Shown piece after piece: positions 12,958 to 21,584 of a DNA stretch of 64,000 bases (within the stretch, counting starts at the first letter, position 1; each line of letters begins with the position of its first letter). The position numbers and the translations under genes are program-made. The stretch spans positions 1,488,001-1,552,000 of the forward strand of contig NZ_CP054587.1 of assembly GCF_002025255.2 (NCBI RefSeq), written 5' to 3'. A model generated the notes under the pieces. The model did not search any database, was not told where the DNA came from, and saw only the letters and a program-made list of their open reading frames with translations. Source of the stretch: Halolamina sp. CBA1230 (GTDB lineage Archaea; Halobacteriota; Halobacteria; Halobacteriales; Haloferacaceae).

Positions 12958-13030
12958 GGGCCGGTGGGGTAGCTTGGTATCCTTCGGCCTTCGGGTGGCC
13001 GTAACCGCGATTCGAATTCGCGCCGGCCCA
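12958..13030 (+). tRNA. tRNA-Pro (anticodon CGG)
   Basis: A complete 73-nt cloverleaf without encoded CCA. The acceptor stem is GGGCCGG (12958-12964) paired with CCGGCCC (13023-13029) and discriminator A. The anticodon stem CGGCC/GGCCG encloses the loop TTCGGGT, giving anticodon CGG after T33. The T-stem CGCGA/TCGCG encloses TTCGAAT, and the D-arm has AGCTTGGTA. All stems except one D-stem position pair. It decodes CCG proline codons, frequent in this genome. Its 3' end is repeated in degenerate form at 13150. Confidence 0.93.
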
Positions 13031-13038
13031 CTACCTTT

Positions 13039-13178: not shown

Positions 13179-13221
13179 CCCACTTCGCAACGACGAGCCA
13201 CAGCGAGGCGTCCGTAGTGGG
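13179..13221. other. Third hairpin, after the tRNA 3' end copy
   Basis: CCCACT (13179-13184) pairs with AGTGGG (13216-13221), with an inner GACG/CGTC pairing. The loop contains GAGCCACAGCGAGGCGT, close to GAGCGACAGCGAGGCGT in the first hairpin. Both hairpins stand about 8-9 nt after a tRNA-Pro 3' end sequence. From here to 13368 I see no gene. Confidence 0.45.
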
Positions 13222-13368: not shown

Positions 13369-13566
13369 CTAGTTGTCGACCAGCCCGAAGTCGGTGCCGT
13401 CGCAGTCCGGGCAGGAGTCCCAGTGTTTCGGTGTCATCTCGACTGAGCTGTCGGTTGCGAGGACGAACCCACAGTTCTGACACTCGACGTAGTCGTTTGC
13501 CCCCACGGTCGCGGCGGTAAGTGGTATCTCTTCTTTGGCTTTGTGGCCGGTCAGCTGACAGCGCAT
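13369..13566 (-). CDS. Small zinc-ribbon protein
   Basis: A 65-residue protein starting MRCQLTGHKAKEEIPLTAAT. It has two Cys knuckles, VECQNCGF and DSCPDCDG, separated by about 22 residues, forming a zinc ribbon of the CPxCG-like small-protein type common in haloarchaea. An in-frame upstream extension to 13686 is rich in Arg/Ala and unlike halophilic coding sequence, so the ATG at 13566 (or the GTGs just before it) is preferred. Possible roles are nucleic-acid binding or protein interaction; none is assigned. Confidence 0.65.
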   Translation of the reverse strand: MRCQLTGHKAKEEIPLTAATVGANDYVECQNCGFVLATDSSVEMTPKHWDSCPDCDGTDFGLVDN

Positions 13567-13786
13567 CACCACGAACGAGCCCTCAGCGCGTCCGAACCCG
13601 CCGGTTCGGGCACCGGCTCGTCGCGCCGCCGTCGCCGGAACGCAGCCCGGATCCACACGGGAGAAGGGCTTATCCGTCCCGACCATCTACGCGTGGTAGA
13701 CTCTCCCACACAAACCGGGAGACGTCTGCCGGAGACGCCGATGCAGTATGTACCGCAGCGGCCCCCTCCCCGCCGAACACAGAACC

Positions 13787-15919
13787 ATGAGCGAAACCGG
13801 AAGCACCAGCACAGACACCGAACCCACCGCCGAGAGCACAGAGCCGATCACCGAGGACGTGTCGCTGTCGTCGATCAGCGACGAGTACCGGGCGAGCGTC
13901 CCCGACGACCTCCGGGAAACGTACCCCGTCCAGTGGTACCTGAACCGGGTCGTCGACGAGCCGCGGGTGGCACGCAACGCACACCAGCGTCTCGCGGACA
14001 TGTTCGACTACTACGGCCGCGAGGACGACGACGGCGACGTCGTCCGCTACACGATCGCGAGCGAGGACCCGTTACACGACGGCGAGAACGTCTTCTTCGG
14101 CGAGAACGTTCACGAGGCGATCCACCGCTACGTGAACAAGGTGAAATCCGGCGCCCGGGGGTTGGGCCCCGAGCGCCGTATCAAACTCCTGCTCGGGCCG
14201 GTCGGCTCGGGTAAGTCCCACTTCGACCACCTCGTCCGGCGCTACTTCGAGGACTACACCCGGCGCGACGAGGGGCGGATGTACACGTTCCGCTGGGTGA
14301 ACCTCACCGACGTCATCGACGACCAGGACCCCGGCGACGACGCCGTCCGGTCGCCGATGAACCAGGACCCGCTGGTGTTGCTCCCGCGGGAGCCACGCGA
14401 TCGCGTCCTCGAGCGAGCCAACGAGCGTCTCGACGCCAACTACACGCTGAGCAACGACCAGTCGCTCGACCCCGAGTCCGCGTTCTACATGGAGCGACTG
14501 CTGGAGCAGTACGACGACGATCTGGAGGCCGTCCTGGCGAACCACGTCGAGGTGGTCCGCCTCGTCGCCGACGAGAACCGCCGCGAGTGTATCGAGACGT
14601 TCGAACCTAAGGACAAGAAGAACCAGGACGAGACCGAGCTCACGGGCGACATCAACTACTCCAAGCTCGCCGTCTACGGCGAGTCCGACCCCCGGGCGTT
14701 CGACTACTCCGGCGCGTTGTGTAACGCCAACCGCGGTATCTTCAGCGGCGAGGAGCTGCTGAAGCTCCAGCGGGAGTTCCTCTACGACTTCCTGCACGCG
14801 ACCCAGGAGGGGACGATCAAACCCCGAAACAACCCCCGGATCGACATCGACCAGGTGATCGTCGGCCGGTCGAACATGCCGGAGTACCGCGACAAACGCG
14901 AAGACGAGAAGATGGAGGCGTTCAACGACCGCACCAAGCGGATCGACTACCCCTACGTGCTCGAGTACGAGGCGGAGGCGCGGATCTACGAGCGCCTGCT
15001 CGACAACGCCGACATCGACGACGTCAGCGTCGAGCCCCACACGCTGGAGATGGCCGGCCTGTTCGCGGTGCTGACCCGGATCCAGGAGCCGACCGAGCAC
15101 GACCTCGACCGGCTGGGGAAGGCGAAGGTGTACAACGGCGAGGCCGCGGGCGCCGACGACATCGACCCGGAGAAACTCCGCGACGAAGGGGACGACCGCG
15201 CACGGGAGGCCGAGGGGATGGACGGCGTCTCCCCCCGCTTCCTCGCCGACGAGATCGCGGAGGCGATCACCGACGCCGTGCCCCGCGAGGAGGAGTACGT
15301 CTCGTCGCTGACGGTGCTGAACTACATCGAGGCGAACCTCGAGAGCCACGGCAGCATCGACCCCGATCGGCTCGGCGACTACGAGACGTTCATCGACGCC
15401 GTGCGCGACGAGTACGAGGACCGCGCGATCGAGGACGTCCGCCACGCGCTCGCCTACGAGCTCGACGAGATCCGGGAGCAGGGCGAGAAGTACATGGACC
15501 ACGTCATGGCGTACATCAACGACGAGACCGTCGAGGACGACGTGGCGGGCGAGGAGCGGTCGCCCGACGAGACGTTCATGCGCGCGGTCGAAGAACAGCT
15601 CGACATCCCCGAGGGCCGGAAGGACGACTTCCGCCAGGAGGTCAGCAACTGGGTCGGCCGGCGCGCCCGCCAAGCCGAGAGCTTCAGCCCCGCGGACAAC
15701 GAGCGCCTGCGCCGCGCGCTCGAGCGGAAGCTCTGGGAGGACAAGAAGCACAACATCAACTACTCCGCCCTGGTCAACGCCGGCGACATCGACGAGGGCG
15801 ATCGCAACGAGTGGGTCGCCGCGCTGCGGGAGCGTGGCTACTCCGAGGGCGGCGCGATGGAGGTGTTGGAGTTCGCGGGCGCGAAGGTCGCAAAGGACGA
15901 GATGGAGGCCGATGAGTGA
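13787..15919 (+). CDS. prkA: PrkA-family AAA+ serine protein kinase (first copy)
   Basis: A 710-residue cytosolic protein starting at ATG 13787, with an upstream frame extension that is not coding-like. After a Thr/Glu-rich tail, the PrkA AAA core starts near residue 40. Walker A is LLLGPVGSGKSHF (about 135-146), the arm KPRNNPRIDIDQVIVGRSNM follows, and the C-terminal PrkA domain (from about 400) includes LEMAGLFAVLTRI and VLNYIEANLESHGSI. YeaG, the bacterial equivalent, is a starvation and stress kinase acting with YeaH. Here it is the first gene of a four-gene operon and overlaps the second prkA by 8 bp. No promoter was clearly identified upstream. Confidence 0.92.
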   Translation: MSETGSTSTDTEPTAESTEPITEDVSLSSISDEYRASVPDDLRETYPVQWYLNRVVDEPRVARNAHQRLADMFDYYGREDDDGDVVRYTIASEDPLHDGENVFFGENVHEAIHRYVNKVKSGARGLGPERRIKLLLGPVGSGKSHFDHLVRRYFEDYTRRDEGRMYTFRWVNLTDVIDDQDPGDDAVRSPMNQDPLVLLPREPRDRVLERANERLDANYTLSNDQSLDPESAFYMERLLEQYDDDLEAVLANHVEVVRLVADENRRECIETFEPKDKKNQDETELTGDINYSKLAVYGESDPRAFDYSGALCNANRGIFSGEELLKLQREFLYDFLHATQEGTIKPRNNPRIDIDQVIVGRSNMPEYRDKREDEKMEAFNDRTKRIDYPYVLEYEAEARIYERLLDNADIDDVSVEPHTLEMAGLFAVLTRIQEPTEHDLDRLGKAKVYNGEAAGADDIDPEKLRDEGDDRAREAEGMDGVSPRFLADEIAEAITDAVPREEEYVSSLTVLNYIEANLESHGSIDPDRLGDYETFIDAVRDEYEDRAIEDVRHALAYELDEIREQGEKYMDHVMAYINDETVEDDVAGEERSPDETFMRAVEEQLDIPEGRKDDFRQEVSNWVGRRARQAESFSPADNERLRRALERKLWEDKKHNINYSALVNAGDIDEGDRNEWVAALRERGYSEGGAMEVLEFAGAKVAKDEMEADE

Positions 15920-18272
15920 CGAGACCGACGCCGGTCGATCCGATGGCGGGGTCGACCGACCGACCGTCGAGCCGTTCGACGACGACGCGTTCGAGCGCCC
16001 GGACGACGCCGGCGTCGATCCGGCAGAGTACGTCGAACGCGGGGACGCGGCGCTGGCCGACCGGTTCGACGAGACCCTGACGTTCTCGGCGTACGTCGAG
16101 CGGCTCTTCGAGCGACCGACCGCCGCCGCAGGGAGCACCAAGTACCTGCTGTCCGCGATCGAGTCGATGGGGACCCGCGAGCTGATCGAGGAGGGCGAGG
16201 AGCGGACGCGCTACCGCTTCTTCGACGACCCGTACAACGACGGCGAGCACGCCGTGTTGGGCAACACGGAGACGCTGAACGCGTTCGTCCGCGACCTCGA
16301 AGCGATCGCCGCCAACCGCGGGAAACAGGAGAGCATCGTCTGGATCGAGGGGCCGACCGCGACCGGGAAATCCGAGCTCAAGCGGTGTCTGATCGACGGG
16401 CTCCACGCGTTCTCGAAAACCCCGGCGGGGCGGCGCTACACCGTCGAGTGGAACACGAACGTGGCGGCCGAGGGGGACGCGCTCACCTACGGCACCGAGG
16501 CGACCGTCGACGAGGGCGAGTGGTACGAGAGCCCAGTGCAGGCCCACCCGCTGCTGGTGCTCCCGCCGGCGGCCCGCGAGGCGCTGCTCCGGGACCTGAA
16601 CGAGGTCGACCCGTCGCCGATCGACACGGTCGTCGACGGCGACCTGCCGCCGTTCAGTCGCGAGATGTACGAGACGCTCGCCGAGGCGTACCGCGGCGAG
16701 GAGGACGCCTTCTCGTCGATCACCGCCCCCCGGCATCTCCGCGTGAAGAACTACGTCGTCGAGGAGGGACAGGGGATCGGCGTGTTGCACGCCGAGGACG
16801 ACGGGACGCCCAAGGAGCGACTCGTCGGGACGTGGATGCCGGGGATGCTGCGCGAGCTCGGCTCGCGGGGGCGGAAGAACCCACAGGCGTTCAGCTACGA
16901 CGGCGTGCTGAGCCAGGGGAACAACCTCCTGACCGTCGTCGAGGACGCCTCGAAACACCGGGACCTGCTCGAGAGCCTCCTGAACGTCCCCGACGAGGAA
17001 CACGTCAAACTCGACAAGGGGATCGGGATGGACGTCGACACGCAGCTGCTCGTCATCTCGAACCCGGATCTGGCGGCCGAACTCGACAAGTTCGAGGGGC
17101 GGACCGACGCGGACCCGCTGAAGGCGCTGAAACGCCGGCTCAGCCGCTACGAGTTCCGGTACCTGCTGAACGTGAGCCTGGAGGCACAGCTGCTGTGGCG
17201 CGAACTCACGACCCGCGCCGAGCTGTGGACGATGCAGGACGCCGCGGAGATCCGGACCAACGTTCGGGCGCCGCTGACCGTGACGGTCAAAGCCCCCGAC
17301 GACGGCGAGGTCACCCGGGAGCTGGCGCCGCATACGGTACAGGCGGCCGCGCTGTACGACGTGGTCTCGCGGCTCGACGGCGACGATCTGCCAGACGGGC
17401 TGGGGATCGTCGAGAAAGCCAGGCTGTACGACCACGGCTACGTCCACCGGGACGGCGACCGGGTCGAGAAGGACGCGTTCGACTGGAACGACGACGCCGA
17501 CGAGGGGCGCTCGGGGATCCCGATCACGTACACCAGGGACGTGGTCGCGACGTTGCTGAGCGAGCCCGCCGACCGCCACCACCCCTCGCTCCCGGTGGCG
17601 GACGTGGTGCTCCCGGAGGACGTGCTCGACGCGATGGCGAACGGGCTGGCGAGCACGCCCGTGTTCGCCGACGCGGAGGCCGCCCGGTTCGAGGAGCTGG
17701 TCGTGGCGGTGAAAGACGCCGTCTTCGAGGAGCAGGCCGAGGACGTGCGGGCGGCGATGCTCCGCGAGGAGGGGGTCTCCCGCGAGGCCGTCGAGGAGTA
17801 CGTCGAGCACGTGTTCGCCTGGGGCACCGACGAGTCGTTCGACACCGATGGCCCCGACCCGGTGACGATGAAGCTGTTCGAGACGCGGGAGCTCGGCCGG
17901 TTCGACGACGGCGACTACGACGGCGCGGCGCCGAGCGAGGCCGTCGAGCGGTTCCGGCACGACGAGATCATCGTCGCCGTGAACAACATCCTCTGGGAGG
18001 AACGCGGCGAGACGTTCGACATCGACGACGTGGACTACCGGGACGTGCCGGCGCTGCGGGCCGCCATCGAGACGAACGACTGGCGCCACGTTCAGGCCGC
18101 GTTCGAGGATCTGGACCCGGCGCAGTGGGACGCCCCCGAGGAGAACACCCAGACTGCGGCGGTGAAAGCCGAGACGATCCGGAACATGCAGGAACTGTTC
18201 GACTACTCCCCGGCGTCGGCCGAGCTCGTCTCGCGCCGGGTCATGACGGAGGCCCGCCACCGATGGGACTGA
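15912..18272 (+). CDS. PrkA-family AAA+ serine protein kinase (second copy)
   Basis: A 786-residue PrkA paralogue, starting at the ATG at 15912 that overlaps the preceding stop by 8 bp. Walker A is [14 protein letters not shown] (about 145-158), different from GPVGSGKS in the first copy. It keeps the PrkA pattern [20 protein letters not shown], the LLVISNPD sensor-like strand, and a C-terminal domain with [17 protein letters not shown]. The two PrkA proteins are clearly diverged, so they are not a recent duplication; a heteromeric AAA+ ring or division of labour is possible. It overlaps the YeaH gene by 10 bp. Confidence 0.88.
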
Positions 18273-19585
18273 GAGACCACATCCGCCGGTTCGAGGAGGT
18301 CGGCGAGACGTTCCGCCAGGATCTCCGGGAGTTCATCCGCGAGGGGGAGTTCGAGCCGTCGACCGAGGAGACGATCAAGATCCCCGTGAAAGTCGTCGAC
18401 CTGCCGGAGATCGCGTACGATCCGATCGACAAGGGTGGGGTCGGGATGGCCGGCGACGCCGACGCCCAGCCCGACCCGGGCCAGCCCGTCAAGGTCCCCG
18501 GACAGCCCGAGGGGGGACAGGACGGCGACGGCGACGAGGCGGGCGAGGACGGCGGGGAACACGCCGACTACTACGACATGGACCCCGAGGAGTTCGCCCG
18601 CCAGCTCGACGACGAACTCGAGCTGGATCTGGAGCCCAAGGGGAAACAGGTCGCCGAGGAGACCGAGGGGCCCCTGACGGAGGTGACCGAGCGCGGCACC
18701 CGGAGCACGCTGATGCTGCGGGAGTGGTTCACGGAGGGGCTGAAACGCAAGCTGGCAACCGACTTCGACGAGAACTACGTCCGGGAGGCGCTCAGGGTCG
18801 AGGGGTGGGACGCCGACCGCGTGTTCGCGTGGGCCCGCGAGCAGCGGATCCCCGTCTCCCACGCCTGGATCGTGGACGCCGCCCGCGACATCGACGAACC
18901 GGACGCGTGGGCGAGCATCGAGGCGATGGAGGCCGCCGTCGACCACGAGCCGGTCGGCGTCCGGATCCGGCGTGAGGGGATCGAGGAGGTGCCGCTGCGC
19001 CGCGAGGACCAGCAGTTCCGCCACCCCGAGATCGAGCGGGAGTACGAGAAGAACGTCGTCGTGGTGAACATCCGCGACGTCTCCGGGTCGATGCGGGCGG
19101 AGAAGCGCGAGCTGGTCGAGCGGACGTTCGTCCCGCTCGACTGGTATCTGACCGGGAAGTACGAGGCGGCGGAGTTCGTCTACATCGCCCACAACGCCGA
19201 CGCGTGGGAGGTCGACCGCGAGGAGTTCTTCCGGCTCTCCTCCTCGGGCGGCACGCGGATCTCCTCGGCGTACGAGCTCGCCGCGGAGCTGTTGGAGGAG
19301 AACTACCCGTGGGCGGAGTGGAACCGCTACGTGTTCGCGGCCGGCGACGGCGAGAACCGCGCGGGCGACACCGAGGAGAACGTGATCCCCGCGATGGAGG
19401 CGCTGGACGTGAACCTGCACGGCTACCTCCAGACCCAGCCGGGGTCGTCGCGGGGGAGCCACGGCGACGCGGTGCAGCGACACTTCGGCGGCGAGTCGAA
19501 CGTCGCCGTCGCGGAGGTCGACACGCAGGACGACGTGATCGACGCGATCGAGGCGATCCTGTCGACGGAGGAGACCGATGAGTAA
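18263..19585 (+). CDS. YeaH/YhbH family protein (DUF444, VWA-like)
   Basis: A 440-residue protein starting [21 protein letters not shown] conserved N-terminal helix is followed by [20 protein letters not shown], an acidic Gly/Asp linker (about 70-105), and a C-terminal von Willebrand A-like domain with the metal motif DVSGSM (272-277), [27 protein letters not shown] and a [10 protein letters not shown] strand. In bacteria YeaH works with the PrkA kinase YeaG. Overlaps both neighbours (10 bp with prkA2, 8 bp with spoVR), so translation of the four genes is likely coupled. Confidence 0.93.
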
Positions 19586-21584
19586 CACGTTCAGAGCCGG
19601 CGACTCCCGGGAGGCACAGCGCGTCAGGGCGGCGCTCGAGGGGCCAGTCGCGGACGCCCGCGAACTGGCCGAGAAGCTCGGGCTGCGCCCGCGACCGGTG
19701 CGCTACTGGCTGGTCAGCTACGACGAGATGCGGGGGCTGATCGCCCAGCAGGGGTTCCAGACGCGCTACCCCCACTGGCGCTGGGGGATGCAGTACAAAC
19801 AGCAGGAGCGGCGGGAGTTCGCTGGCGGACGGGCGTTCGAGATCGTCAACAACAGCGAGCCCTCCCACGCCTTTCTCCAGCTGTCGAACGAGTTCGCCGA
19901 CCAGAAGGCGGTGATCACCCACGTCGAGGCTCACTCGGACTTCTTCGCGAACAACCGGTGGTTCGGGCTGTTCAGCCGGGCGCCCGACGCCGCCCGGCTG
20001 CTCGCCCGCCACGCCGAGACGATCGAGGAGTACATGACCGACCCCGAGATCGGCCGGGACGCCGTCGAGGCGTTCATCGACCACGTTCTGACGGTCGAGA
20101 CCGCGATCGATCAGTGGTCGGCGTTCCGCCCCGTCGAGGACCGCTCGAACGCGGACGGCGAGGACGGGCCGGAGCTCTCCCGCGAGGAGCGCGTCACCGA
20201 ACTCGGGCTGGCCGACGAGATCACCGAGCAGGTGTTCGGCGAGTGGATCGACGACGAGGCGACGAGCGAAGCGGTCGACCGGCTGCCCGACCCGGAGTAC
20301 GACCTGCTCGGCCTGCTGTACACGTTCGGCCAGCAGTACGACGACGAGTCCGGGGGGGCGGTCGCGTTCGAGGAGTGGCAGCAGGACGTGCTGGCGATGC
20401 TGCGGACCGAGAGCTACTACTTCGCCCCCCAGCGGATGACGAAGATCATGAACGAGGGGTGGGCAACGTATTGGGAGTCCGTCATGATGAGCGACGAGCT
20501 GTTCGCGGGCACCGACGAGTTCGTCCGCTACGCCGACAAGCAGGCCCAAGTGCTCCAGTCCCGCGGGCTCAACCCCTACGCGCTGGGCAACTCCCTCTGG
20601 CAGTACGTGGAGAACAGCGCCAACCGCCGGGAGGTCGTCACCCAGCTCCTCCAGGTCGACGGGATCACCTGGCGGAACTTCCACGACGCCGTCGAGTTCG
20701 AGGCCGTGCTCGACGCGCTCGAACCGCCCGCGGCCATCGCGGGCGTCGACGCCGACAGCCTCGACGCCGTCGCCGCGCTCGACGACCGGTACGTCGACGA
20801 GGACGGGCTCGCCGCCGCCCGCGAGGGCGAGATCGACGCGACGGCGTTCCCGTGGAAGCTGCTGACGTACGACGCGATGGTCGAGCGCCACTACTCGCTG
20901 GTCCGCCCCGAGAACCGGAGCTTCCTCGCGGACGTCAGCCGCGAGCGCGTCGAGGAGCTCTCGCGGTACGTGCTCGAACCGGACCGGTTCGACAGCGTCG
21001 ACGAGGCGCTCGCGACCGTCGACAAGGCCGCCGGCTGGGAGCGGATGCGCGAGGTCCGGGAGAGCAAGAACGACGTGACGTTCGTCGACGAGTACCTCAC
21101 CCAGGAGTTCGTCGACATCCACGGGCTGTTCGCCTACGAGTACAGCCACCGGGCGGACGGGTTCCGCGTCAGCAGCACCGACGTCGAAGCGGTCCGGAAC
21201 AAGCTGCTGCTCGAGTTCACCAACTTCGGCAAACCCCGCGTCAGCGTGCGGGAGATCAACTACGGCAACCAGGGCGAGCTGCTGCTGGCCCACGAGTACA
21301 ACGGGATCCGGATGGACATCGAGCAGATGGGGGACGTGCTGGAGCGGCTGTTCGAACTCTGGGGCCGTCCGGTCAACTGCAAAACCATCGACAAGCGCGT
21401 GACCGACGAGGCGATCGAGCGGGCGGCCCGGCGGCGCCAGGAGCCCGAGCCCGAGGAGGTGGGCGTGATGCTGCGCTACGACGGCGACGGGTTCACCGTC
21501 ACCGAACTCGACGACGAGGCGGTCGCGGACATCGCCGCCGACGACGTGGACTACGACACCACGCCGTCGAACTGGTCGAACTGA
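19578..21584 (+). CDS. spoVR: SpoVR family protein
   Basis: A 668-residue cytosolic protein, last gene of the PrkA-PrkA-YeaH-SpoVR operon. SpoVR family signatures are strong: [68 protein letters not shown] and [15 protein letters not shown]. These His/Glu-rich motifs look like a metal or substrate site, though the reaction of SpoVR proteins is not established; in Bacillus the gene affects spore cortex formation. Length and domain order are normal; no frameshift. Conserved linkage with PrkA and DUF444 in both bacteria and archaea argues for a common stress-response machine. Confidence 0.93.

Follow-up and report, generated by a model that had tools for sequence, protein, structure and literature searches.

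PrkA (YeaG), YeaH (YhbH, DUF444) and SpoVR occur widely and are linked to stress; their biochemistry is a matter of dispute, with kinase, protease and neither having been proposed. Bacillus subtilis PrkA was once described as a putative kinase because a 60 kDa protein was phosphorylated in vitro, and a B. subtilis protease paper followed in 2022, both as recounted in PMC13001217; in that same source, purified B. anthracis PrkA had negligible activity as a kinase or a protease, and formed oligomeric species once ATP was added. In Escherichia coli, the kinase-domain mutant YeaG K426A fails to complement (PMC4664914). Among haloarchaea, Anderson et al. (2011; PMC3102087) compared ten genomes and found, in every haloarchaeal one, two adjacent PrkA-like kinases always accompanied by DUF444 and SpoVR; they counted this cluster as one of the signature clusters that other archaea lack. 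Here we describe such a locus in Halolamina sp. CBA1230 (assembly GCF_002025255.2), where four overlapping genes, all on the forward strand, encode PrkA1–PrkA2–YeaH(DUF444)–SpoVR. The stretch analysed, hereafter the window, comprises 64,000 nucleotides of contig NZ_CP054587.1 (positions 1,488,001 to 1,552,000).

The two-PrkA/DUF444/SpoVR arrangement is not new, having been in print since 2011; the passage of PMC3102087 devoted to it covers presence and adjacency only, and contains nothing on subunit divergence, motif change or viruses. Literature searches returned no cryo-electron microscopy study of a PrkA AAA protein (2023 on) or of a SpoVR/PrkA/YhbH complex (2018 on). As far as these searches show, the altered PrkA2 subunit, the carriage of the operon by viruses and a lead to the fold of SpoVR are new.

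Results

Co-inheritance of the four genes

Gene coordinates were confirmed from the DNA (Table 1), with successive overlaps of 8, 10 and 8 bp, and each product exceeded the curated Pfam cut-offs. PrkA1 matched AAA_PrkA (PF08298) with 213 bits and the PrkA C-terminal domain (PF06798) with 220 bits, PrkA2 the same two families with 32 and 83 bits (cut-off 25), YeaH DUF444 (PF04285) with 309 bits and SpoVR PF04293 with 248 bits; the SpoVR_C domain remained below its cut-off in the window SpoVR (24.5 vs 27.6). Among solved PrkA structures (9xip, 9xiq and 9xir, three entries with 30 chains), chain 9xip was matched by both PrkA1 (E 1e-130) and PrkA2 (E 3e-32). The start of PrkA1 is uncertain, an upstream ATG at 13748 being in frame, and prediction of promoters and terminators gave nothing above shuffled sequences. 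The overlapping four-gene layout and the two distinct Walker A motifs, both noted in a preliminary description of this DNA, were thus correct.

In 194 genomes of the window's class (inferred to be Halobacteria), two PrkA genes, DUF444 and SpoVR occur together in 171, spanning 58 of 65 genera, while the remaining 23 have none of the set, and no partial set was seen. Both PrkA types are thus co-conserved with YeaH and SpoVR, whereas the "all" of PMC3102087, at least as worded in its passage on the ten genomes, does not extend to this larger set. The comparison was made by reading the PrkA, DUF444 and SpoVR tables (194 genomes each) against one another: 20 printed negatives are identical in all three, and the identity of the other three, not printed in any table, follows from the equal totals. 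Every one of the 171 carriers has exactly two PrkA matches, never the single PrkA of the bacterial operon. One genome (G129) holds two DUF444 matches, and SpoVR has two per genome, or three in a few, because the Pfam model matches in pieces. Each family matched the same four of 14 control genomes (E. coli, B. subtilis, Thermus composti and Haloferax volcanii). The order PrkA1-PrkA2-YeaH-SpoVR, on one strand, is kept in all 58 loci compared (57 other genera).

Beyond the class, a PrkA2 profile was run against 294 genomes of the phylum, 53 of them assigned to the class by handles and kinship and 60 lying outside the set that is 90% complete and 5% contaminated. It matched 42, all inside the window's order, and 0 of the 241 genomes outside the class. 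The profile is a fair but imperfect net: in most carriers it also picks up the haloarchaeal PrkA1, and it hits 12 of 14 records from bacteria or phages that had been selected because they hold a PrkA. A PrkA2 search of plasmids gave no match; ten phage records did match PrkA2, and where both proteins match, PrkA1 scores better.

PrkA is mostly single-copy in bacteria. PF06798 was found in 61 of 201 genomes of the phylum of a Thermomicrobium genome (inferred to be Chloroflexota), with more than one match in two (in G596 on two contigs, in G548 as three pieces that each lie on their own contig), and in 76 of 249 genomes of the phylum of a Neobacillus genome (inferred to be Bacillota), with more than one match in five. 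No adjacent PrkA pair was seen in these two phyla, where copies on different contigs cannot be judged. PrkA, YeaH/DUF444 and SpoVR lie side by side in four annotated bacterial loci (Thermomicrobium, Pontibacillus, Legionella and Roseateles), and the fetched flanks of 80 bacterial PrkA loci hold a YeaH open reading frame (ORF) in 53 cases and a SpoVR ORF in 28.

Divergence of the two PrkA proteins

PrkA1 and PrkA2 form old, separate clades in our sequence trees. Haloarchaeal PrkA1 and PrkA2 separated with support of 99 and 100 in a first tree, and in a second, to which viral sequences were added, PrkA1 with its three viral members had support of 99 and PrkA2 with its three had 100, the viral rows being nested within their clades with weak support. 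Both trees were quick searches with SH-aLRT (SH-like approximate likelihood ratio test) support only and drew on 15 rows out of 59 for either haloarchaeal PrkA; ten long-branched bacterial and phage rows present in the first were left aside in the second. The PrkA2 stem exceeds 5 changes per column and the program warned of long branches meeting, so the position of the root is unsure. A recent duplication of PrkA was ruled out by both trees, and the two proteins, which the preliminary description had called clearly different, are neither recent duplicates nor lacking in co-conservation. Between the window and the 58 other haloarchaeal loci, PrkA1 is 67-72% identical and PrkA2 52-59% (69-73% and 55-59% in a smaller sample of 23 each).

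Active-site motifs were compared in an alignment of 165 rows (59 PrkA1, 59 PrkA2, three viral members of each, and 41 PrkAs from bacteria or phages). Residues invariant in PrkA1, PrkA2, viral and bacterial/phage rows are Lys and Ser of Walker A, a Walker B-type Glu, a sensor-1-type Asn and the Arg of a finger-like motif. The Arg of the G-x-S/D-P/A-R motif, by contrast, is the position that cleanly separates PrkA1-type proteins from PrkA2: this putative sensor-2 residue is Arg in 103 of 103 canonical rows (59/59 PrkA1, 3/3 viral PrkA1 and 41/41 bacterial or phage PrkA) and Thr in 62 of 62 PrkA2 rows (59/59 haloarchaeal and 3/3 viral). The motif resembles the sensor-2 motif of MoxR proteins, and GVSPRG is present in two of the three MoxR proteins of the same genome. 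All 59 PrkA1 rows combine the sensor-2-type Arg in GxSPR with the NQD motif (NQDxTEL), a combination that PrkA2 lacks; there, QD is replaced by PK in 61 of 62 rows and by AK in one, and PrkA2 further lacks the Lys that follows the Walker B Glu.

Viral carriage

The complete set, in order, is present on three IMG/VR contigs of 56, 106 and 51 kb (L233, L234 and L235; IMGVR_UViG_3300019926_000028, IMGVR_UViG_3300019927_000058 and IMGVR_UViG_3300017828_000080). Their products are 65-67% (PrkA1), 38-40% (PrkA2), 50-55% (YeaH) and 44-46% (SpoVR) identical to those of the window, and the 51 kb contig has a 96-codon ORF between the two PrkA genes. A further scan of IMG/VR with viral PrkA2 queries revealed no additional contig. 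Two of the three contigs carry a terminase gene and the third a halovirus-like DNA polymerase. The 106 kb contig encodes a terminase, whose best named relative is that of Halogranum tailed virus 1, together with a portal and a major head protein; the 56 kb contig encodes clamp loaders and a family-B polymerase whose best named relatives are from HCTV-5, HCTV-16, HCTV-1 and HVTV-1; and the 51 kb contig encodes a dCTP deaminase, an Hjc resolvase and a thymidylate kinase. On these contigs the operon lies beside genes for nucleotide metabolism, helicases and recombination. No named halovirus in the phage collection was matched by PrkA2, PrkA1 or viral YeaH queries, and no paper on SpoVR in viruses of haloarchaea was found in our literature search.

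Related sets occur in bacteriophages. In Thermus phage Lalka8 (L112), a von Willebrand factor A (VWA) gene, PrkA and a weakly SpoVR-like gene (E 5e-4) lie between the minor head protein and terminase genes; in Thermus phage phiLo (L121), annotated SpoVR and kinase genes adjoin a DUF444-like gene; and a 595 kb metagenomic phage, LR756511 (L111), matches all three families with genes near each other. The jumbo phage RsoM2USA is listed with SpoVR and PrkA in PMC8504454. A known anti-phage defence system was also considered and rejected, as PADLOC returned 0 families for the four operon proteins at E 0.01 and none of its models matched.

YeaH and SpoVR

The DVSGSM motif of YeaH, of the metal-ion-dependent adhesion site (MIDAS) type, DxSxS, is also present in the three viral YeaH proteins and in Thermomicrobium YeaH; one row of that alignment, in the wrong frame (L042), was ignored.

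The predicted structure of SpoVR is fair to good (mean predicted local distance difference test score, pLDDT, 79; predicted TM-score, pTM, 0.81), and in one of two structural comparisons part of it resembles zincin metallohydrolases. Its top four structural neighbours by VIA-align are ERAP1 (Z 11.9 over 174 residues), 3cmn (11.4 over 210), an M1-family protein (10.7 over 198) and YbeY (8.5 over 118), with the metalloproteases MMP-11, lethal factor and PPEP-1/Zmp1 following at Z 4-6 on the same part. In the model, the putative ligands H115 to D121 fall within helix 106-125 and Glu293 within helix 289-304. These residues were followed in a 25-row alignment (21 bacterial, three viral and the window sequence) and in 59 haloarchaeal rows, two of which are misaligned; this fits the finding that their SpoVR genes (L070:3405-6647 and L084:3416-6808, both on the reverse strand) are split by a LAGLIDADG intein inserted exactly after NEGWA. 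Further SpoVR inteins may exist in other genomes with three SpoVR pieces.

The locus in the window

Three congeneric genomes keep both flanks of the locus without the operon: window position 13199 joins 22806 via 102 bp in one (G089), 13214 joins 22806 via 50 bp in the second (G042), and 13174 joins 21665 via about 410 bp in the third (G190). No convincing operon remnant was found at these three empty sites (best tblastn E 0.47). A DUF5820-type gene lies upstream of PrkA1, in the opposite direction, in 46 of the 58 other loci, and a UPF0179-type gene, usually next to it, in 42 of 58. The window has neither by the operon, its UPF0179 gene being about 230 kb away; therefore either the operon has changed place or been acquired anew in this lineage, or the neighbours have moved.

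Immediately upstream of the boundary at 13199 is a tRNA-Pro gene (12958-13031). Divergent from PrkA1, in the segment that the congeners lack, is a small, CxxC-rich, zinc-ribbon-like ORF on the reverse strand (13372-13686), with no Pfam match. ARAGORN also called a tRNA-Asp on the reverse strand at 20702-20793, opposite the SpoVR coding sequence, probably a false positive.

Table 1. Genes of the operon and motif positions, in window coordinates
Feature	Position	Strand	Basis or conservation
PrkA1, canonical-type PrkA AAA+ protein, 710 aa	13787..15919	+	ORF, Pfam, 9xip match
PrkA1 Walker A, GPVGSGKS	14195..14218	+	invariant in 59 rows
PrkA1 Arg484 in GVSPRF, sensor-2-type arginine	15236..15238	+	motif assignment
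PrkA2, divergent PrkA, 786 aa	15912..18272	+	ORF, Pfam, 9xip match
PrkA2 Walker A, GPTATGKS	16350..16373	+	Lys153, Ser154 invariant in 59/59 haloarchaeal, 3/3 viral rows
PrkA2 Thr539 at putative sensor-2 arginine position	17526..17528	+	alignment
YeaH / DUF444, VWA-type protein, 440 aa	18263..19585	+	ORF, Pfam
YeaH DVSGSM, MIDAS-type motif (DxSxS)	19076..19093	+	conserved in haloarchaeal alignment
SpoVR, 668 aa	19578..21584	+	ORF, Pfam
SpoVR H115-x3-H119-x-D121 (HVxxHxD), putative metal site	19920..19940	+	25/25 rows, 57/59 haloarchaeal rows
SpoVR NEGWA, putative third ligand Glu293	20451..20465	+	E293 in 25/25 rows, 57/59 haloarchaeal rows

Discussion

The all-or-none occurrence of the four genes, their fixed order, the old PrkA clades with their distinct motif states, the viral contigs holding all four, the adjacency of the bacterial counterparts and the structural neighbours of SpoVR lead us to favour, tentatively and at somewhat less than an even chance, the view that the four products form a single machine that remodels proteins at the expense of ATP: an archaeal version of the PrkA-YeaH-SpoVR module that has gained another motor subunit, comprising a mixed AAA+ ring, a YeaH adaptor and a SpoVR effector. 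The preliminary description had proposed a heteromeric AAA+ kinase assembly with VWA and SpoVR partners. An AAA+ assembly of this kind is still the likeliest arrangement, given co-conservation, old clades, viral carriage and the Arg-to-Thr change in 62 of 62 PrkA2 rows; the kinase part of the proposal is not supported, as discussed below.

In such a machine, PrkA1 and PrkA2 would co-assemble in one ring with PrkA1 as the main ATPase, and PrkA2 would bind nucleotide and give an arginine finger to the neighbouring subunit. With the sensor-2-type Arg fixedly lost, PrkA2 may hydrolyse or sense ATP differently and could serve as a regulatory or structural subunit. YeaH, via its MIDAS-type motif, would couple the ring to a client, by analogy with the VWA partners of MoxR-type pairs, and SpoVR, with its putatively zincin-like core and invariant HVxxHxD and NEGWA site, would be the effector or a client. 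The whole would have a role in starvation or stress.

Several observations weigh against this view of a single machine. "Sensor 2" and "Arg finger" are candidate assignments, made from motif and position, and an hhalign comparison of PrkA with MoxR gave a probability of 0.34%, with only the GVSPR motif in common. The AlphaFold model of PrkA2 is poor (pTM 0.46) and found no significant match in Foldseek. Foldseek likewise returned nothing significant for the SpoVR model, whose zincin-like match is partial (174-210 of 668 residues) and whose C-terminal 100 residues are matched by unrelated folds; moreover, the HExxH motif is missing from SpoVR, which has HVxxH instead, with V116 in 25/25 and 59/59 rows. 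Among bacteria, prkA on a B. licheniformis plasmid has neither yeaH nor spoVR annotated alongside, and in E. coli yeaH is followed by a gene that does not encode a SpoVR protein.

The strongest competing account, which we regard as unlikely, is that each PrkA assembles into a homo-oligomeric motor of its own, the two motors having YeaH and SpoVR as common partners and acting on different clients or under different conditions. PrkA2 retains Walker A, the Walker B Glu, sensor 1 and the finger-position Arg and could therefore be an ATPase alone, and prkA2 is among the 25 most expressed genes in a winter population of Haloquadratum walsbyi (PMC9684190); the strict one-to-one co-inheritance and the fixed sensor-2 change are nevertheless better suited to a dependent subunit. 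A bolder version of the mixed-ring machine, to which we assign a low probability, would have the sensor-2-deficient PrkA2 tune a hetero-oligomeric motor that powers SpoVR as a zincin-like hydrolase, an FtsH-like AAA+/metallohydrolase arrangement spread over several proteins. SpoVR would then be the missing enzyme behind the disputed protease activity of PrkA, and tailed haloviruses would carry the complete machine, much like the phages with the three-gene form, presumably to remodel a starved or dormant host.

It is improbable that PrkA2 is instead a client-recognition adaptor, its motor function gone, which contacts PrkA1 or YeaH outside the ring: its deeper divergence would fit such a role, as would its having lost NQDxTEL and the Lys that follows the Walker B Glu, but an invariant Walker A and candidate Arg finger in 62 of 62 PrkA2 rows would be unexpected.

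That both PrkAs are serine/threonine kinases forming a two-kinase signalling unit is very improbable. The idea draws on historical names, on PF06798 being named a kinase domain, on the in vitro phosphorylation attributed to B. subtilis PrkA (as told in PMC13001217) and on the failure of YeaG K426A to complement (PMC4664914). The column of YeaG K426, however, is Asp in 118 of 118 haloarchaeal PrkA1 and PrkA2 rows, so that none has the Lys expected there of a eukaryote-like Ser/Thr kinase, and in the 41 rows from bacteria or phages Asn predominates (32), against just five with Lys and four with Asp. This residue sits four positions past the sensor-2-type Arg (GLSTRFAFK); not being conserved in the family and lying one helical turn from that Arg, it may be that the published mutant reports on the AAA+ lid instead. 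At the column of R232, the second AAA+ mutant described in PMC4664914, PrkA1 has Ser or Ala and PrkA2 mostly Gly. Because of the Asp at the K426 column and the negligible kinase activity of B. anthracis PrkA (PMC13001217), the "kinase" of the preliminary description is doubtful for the archaeal proteins, as a name rather than an established property. Finally, tightly packed overlapping genes are readily co-inherited, yet a second PrkA retained by proximity as a neutral passenger is scarcely credible given the lack of any partial set in 194 genomes, the invariant PrkA2 motifs and the retention of the set by viruses.

If the single-machine reading is correct, the haloarchaeal motor consists of two constant, non-identical subunits, of which one bears a single diagnostic change, and what each subunit does can therefore be tested with point mutants of Haloferax volcanii, a tractable archaeon. 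That virus-like contigs keep all four genes suggests that they function together as a portable set, and the predicted zincin-like core offers a testable biochemical role for the SpoVR family.

Compared with known systems, the modelled SpoVR core may resemble M1 aminopeptidases, 3cmn and YbeY, with HVxxH in place of HExxH. As in gluzincins, the SpoVR model has an H-x3-H helix and later a Glu-bearing helix, but Val stands where HExxH has its catalytic Glu. MoxR AAA+ proteins pair with VWA partners in RavA-ViaA, CbbQ-CbbO and ChlI-ChlD, and in ChlI-ChlD one of the two AAA+ subunits is degenerate. These pairs likewise unite an AAA+ motor with a MIDAS/VWA protein, though their AAA+ families differ from PrkA. 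Another close counterpart is the bacterial PrkA(YeaG)-YhbH(YeaH)-SpoVR module, in which the same three families occur in the same order as in haloarchaea, but with one PrkA, whereas the haloarchaeal operon has PrkA2 between PrkA1 and YeaH. The same distinction extends to viruses, as the phage sets of Lalka8, phiLo and LR756511 comprise three genes with one PrkA, while the halovirus-like contigs carry four genes, including both PrkAs.

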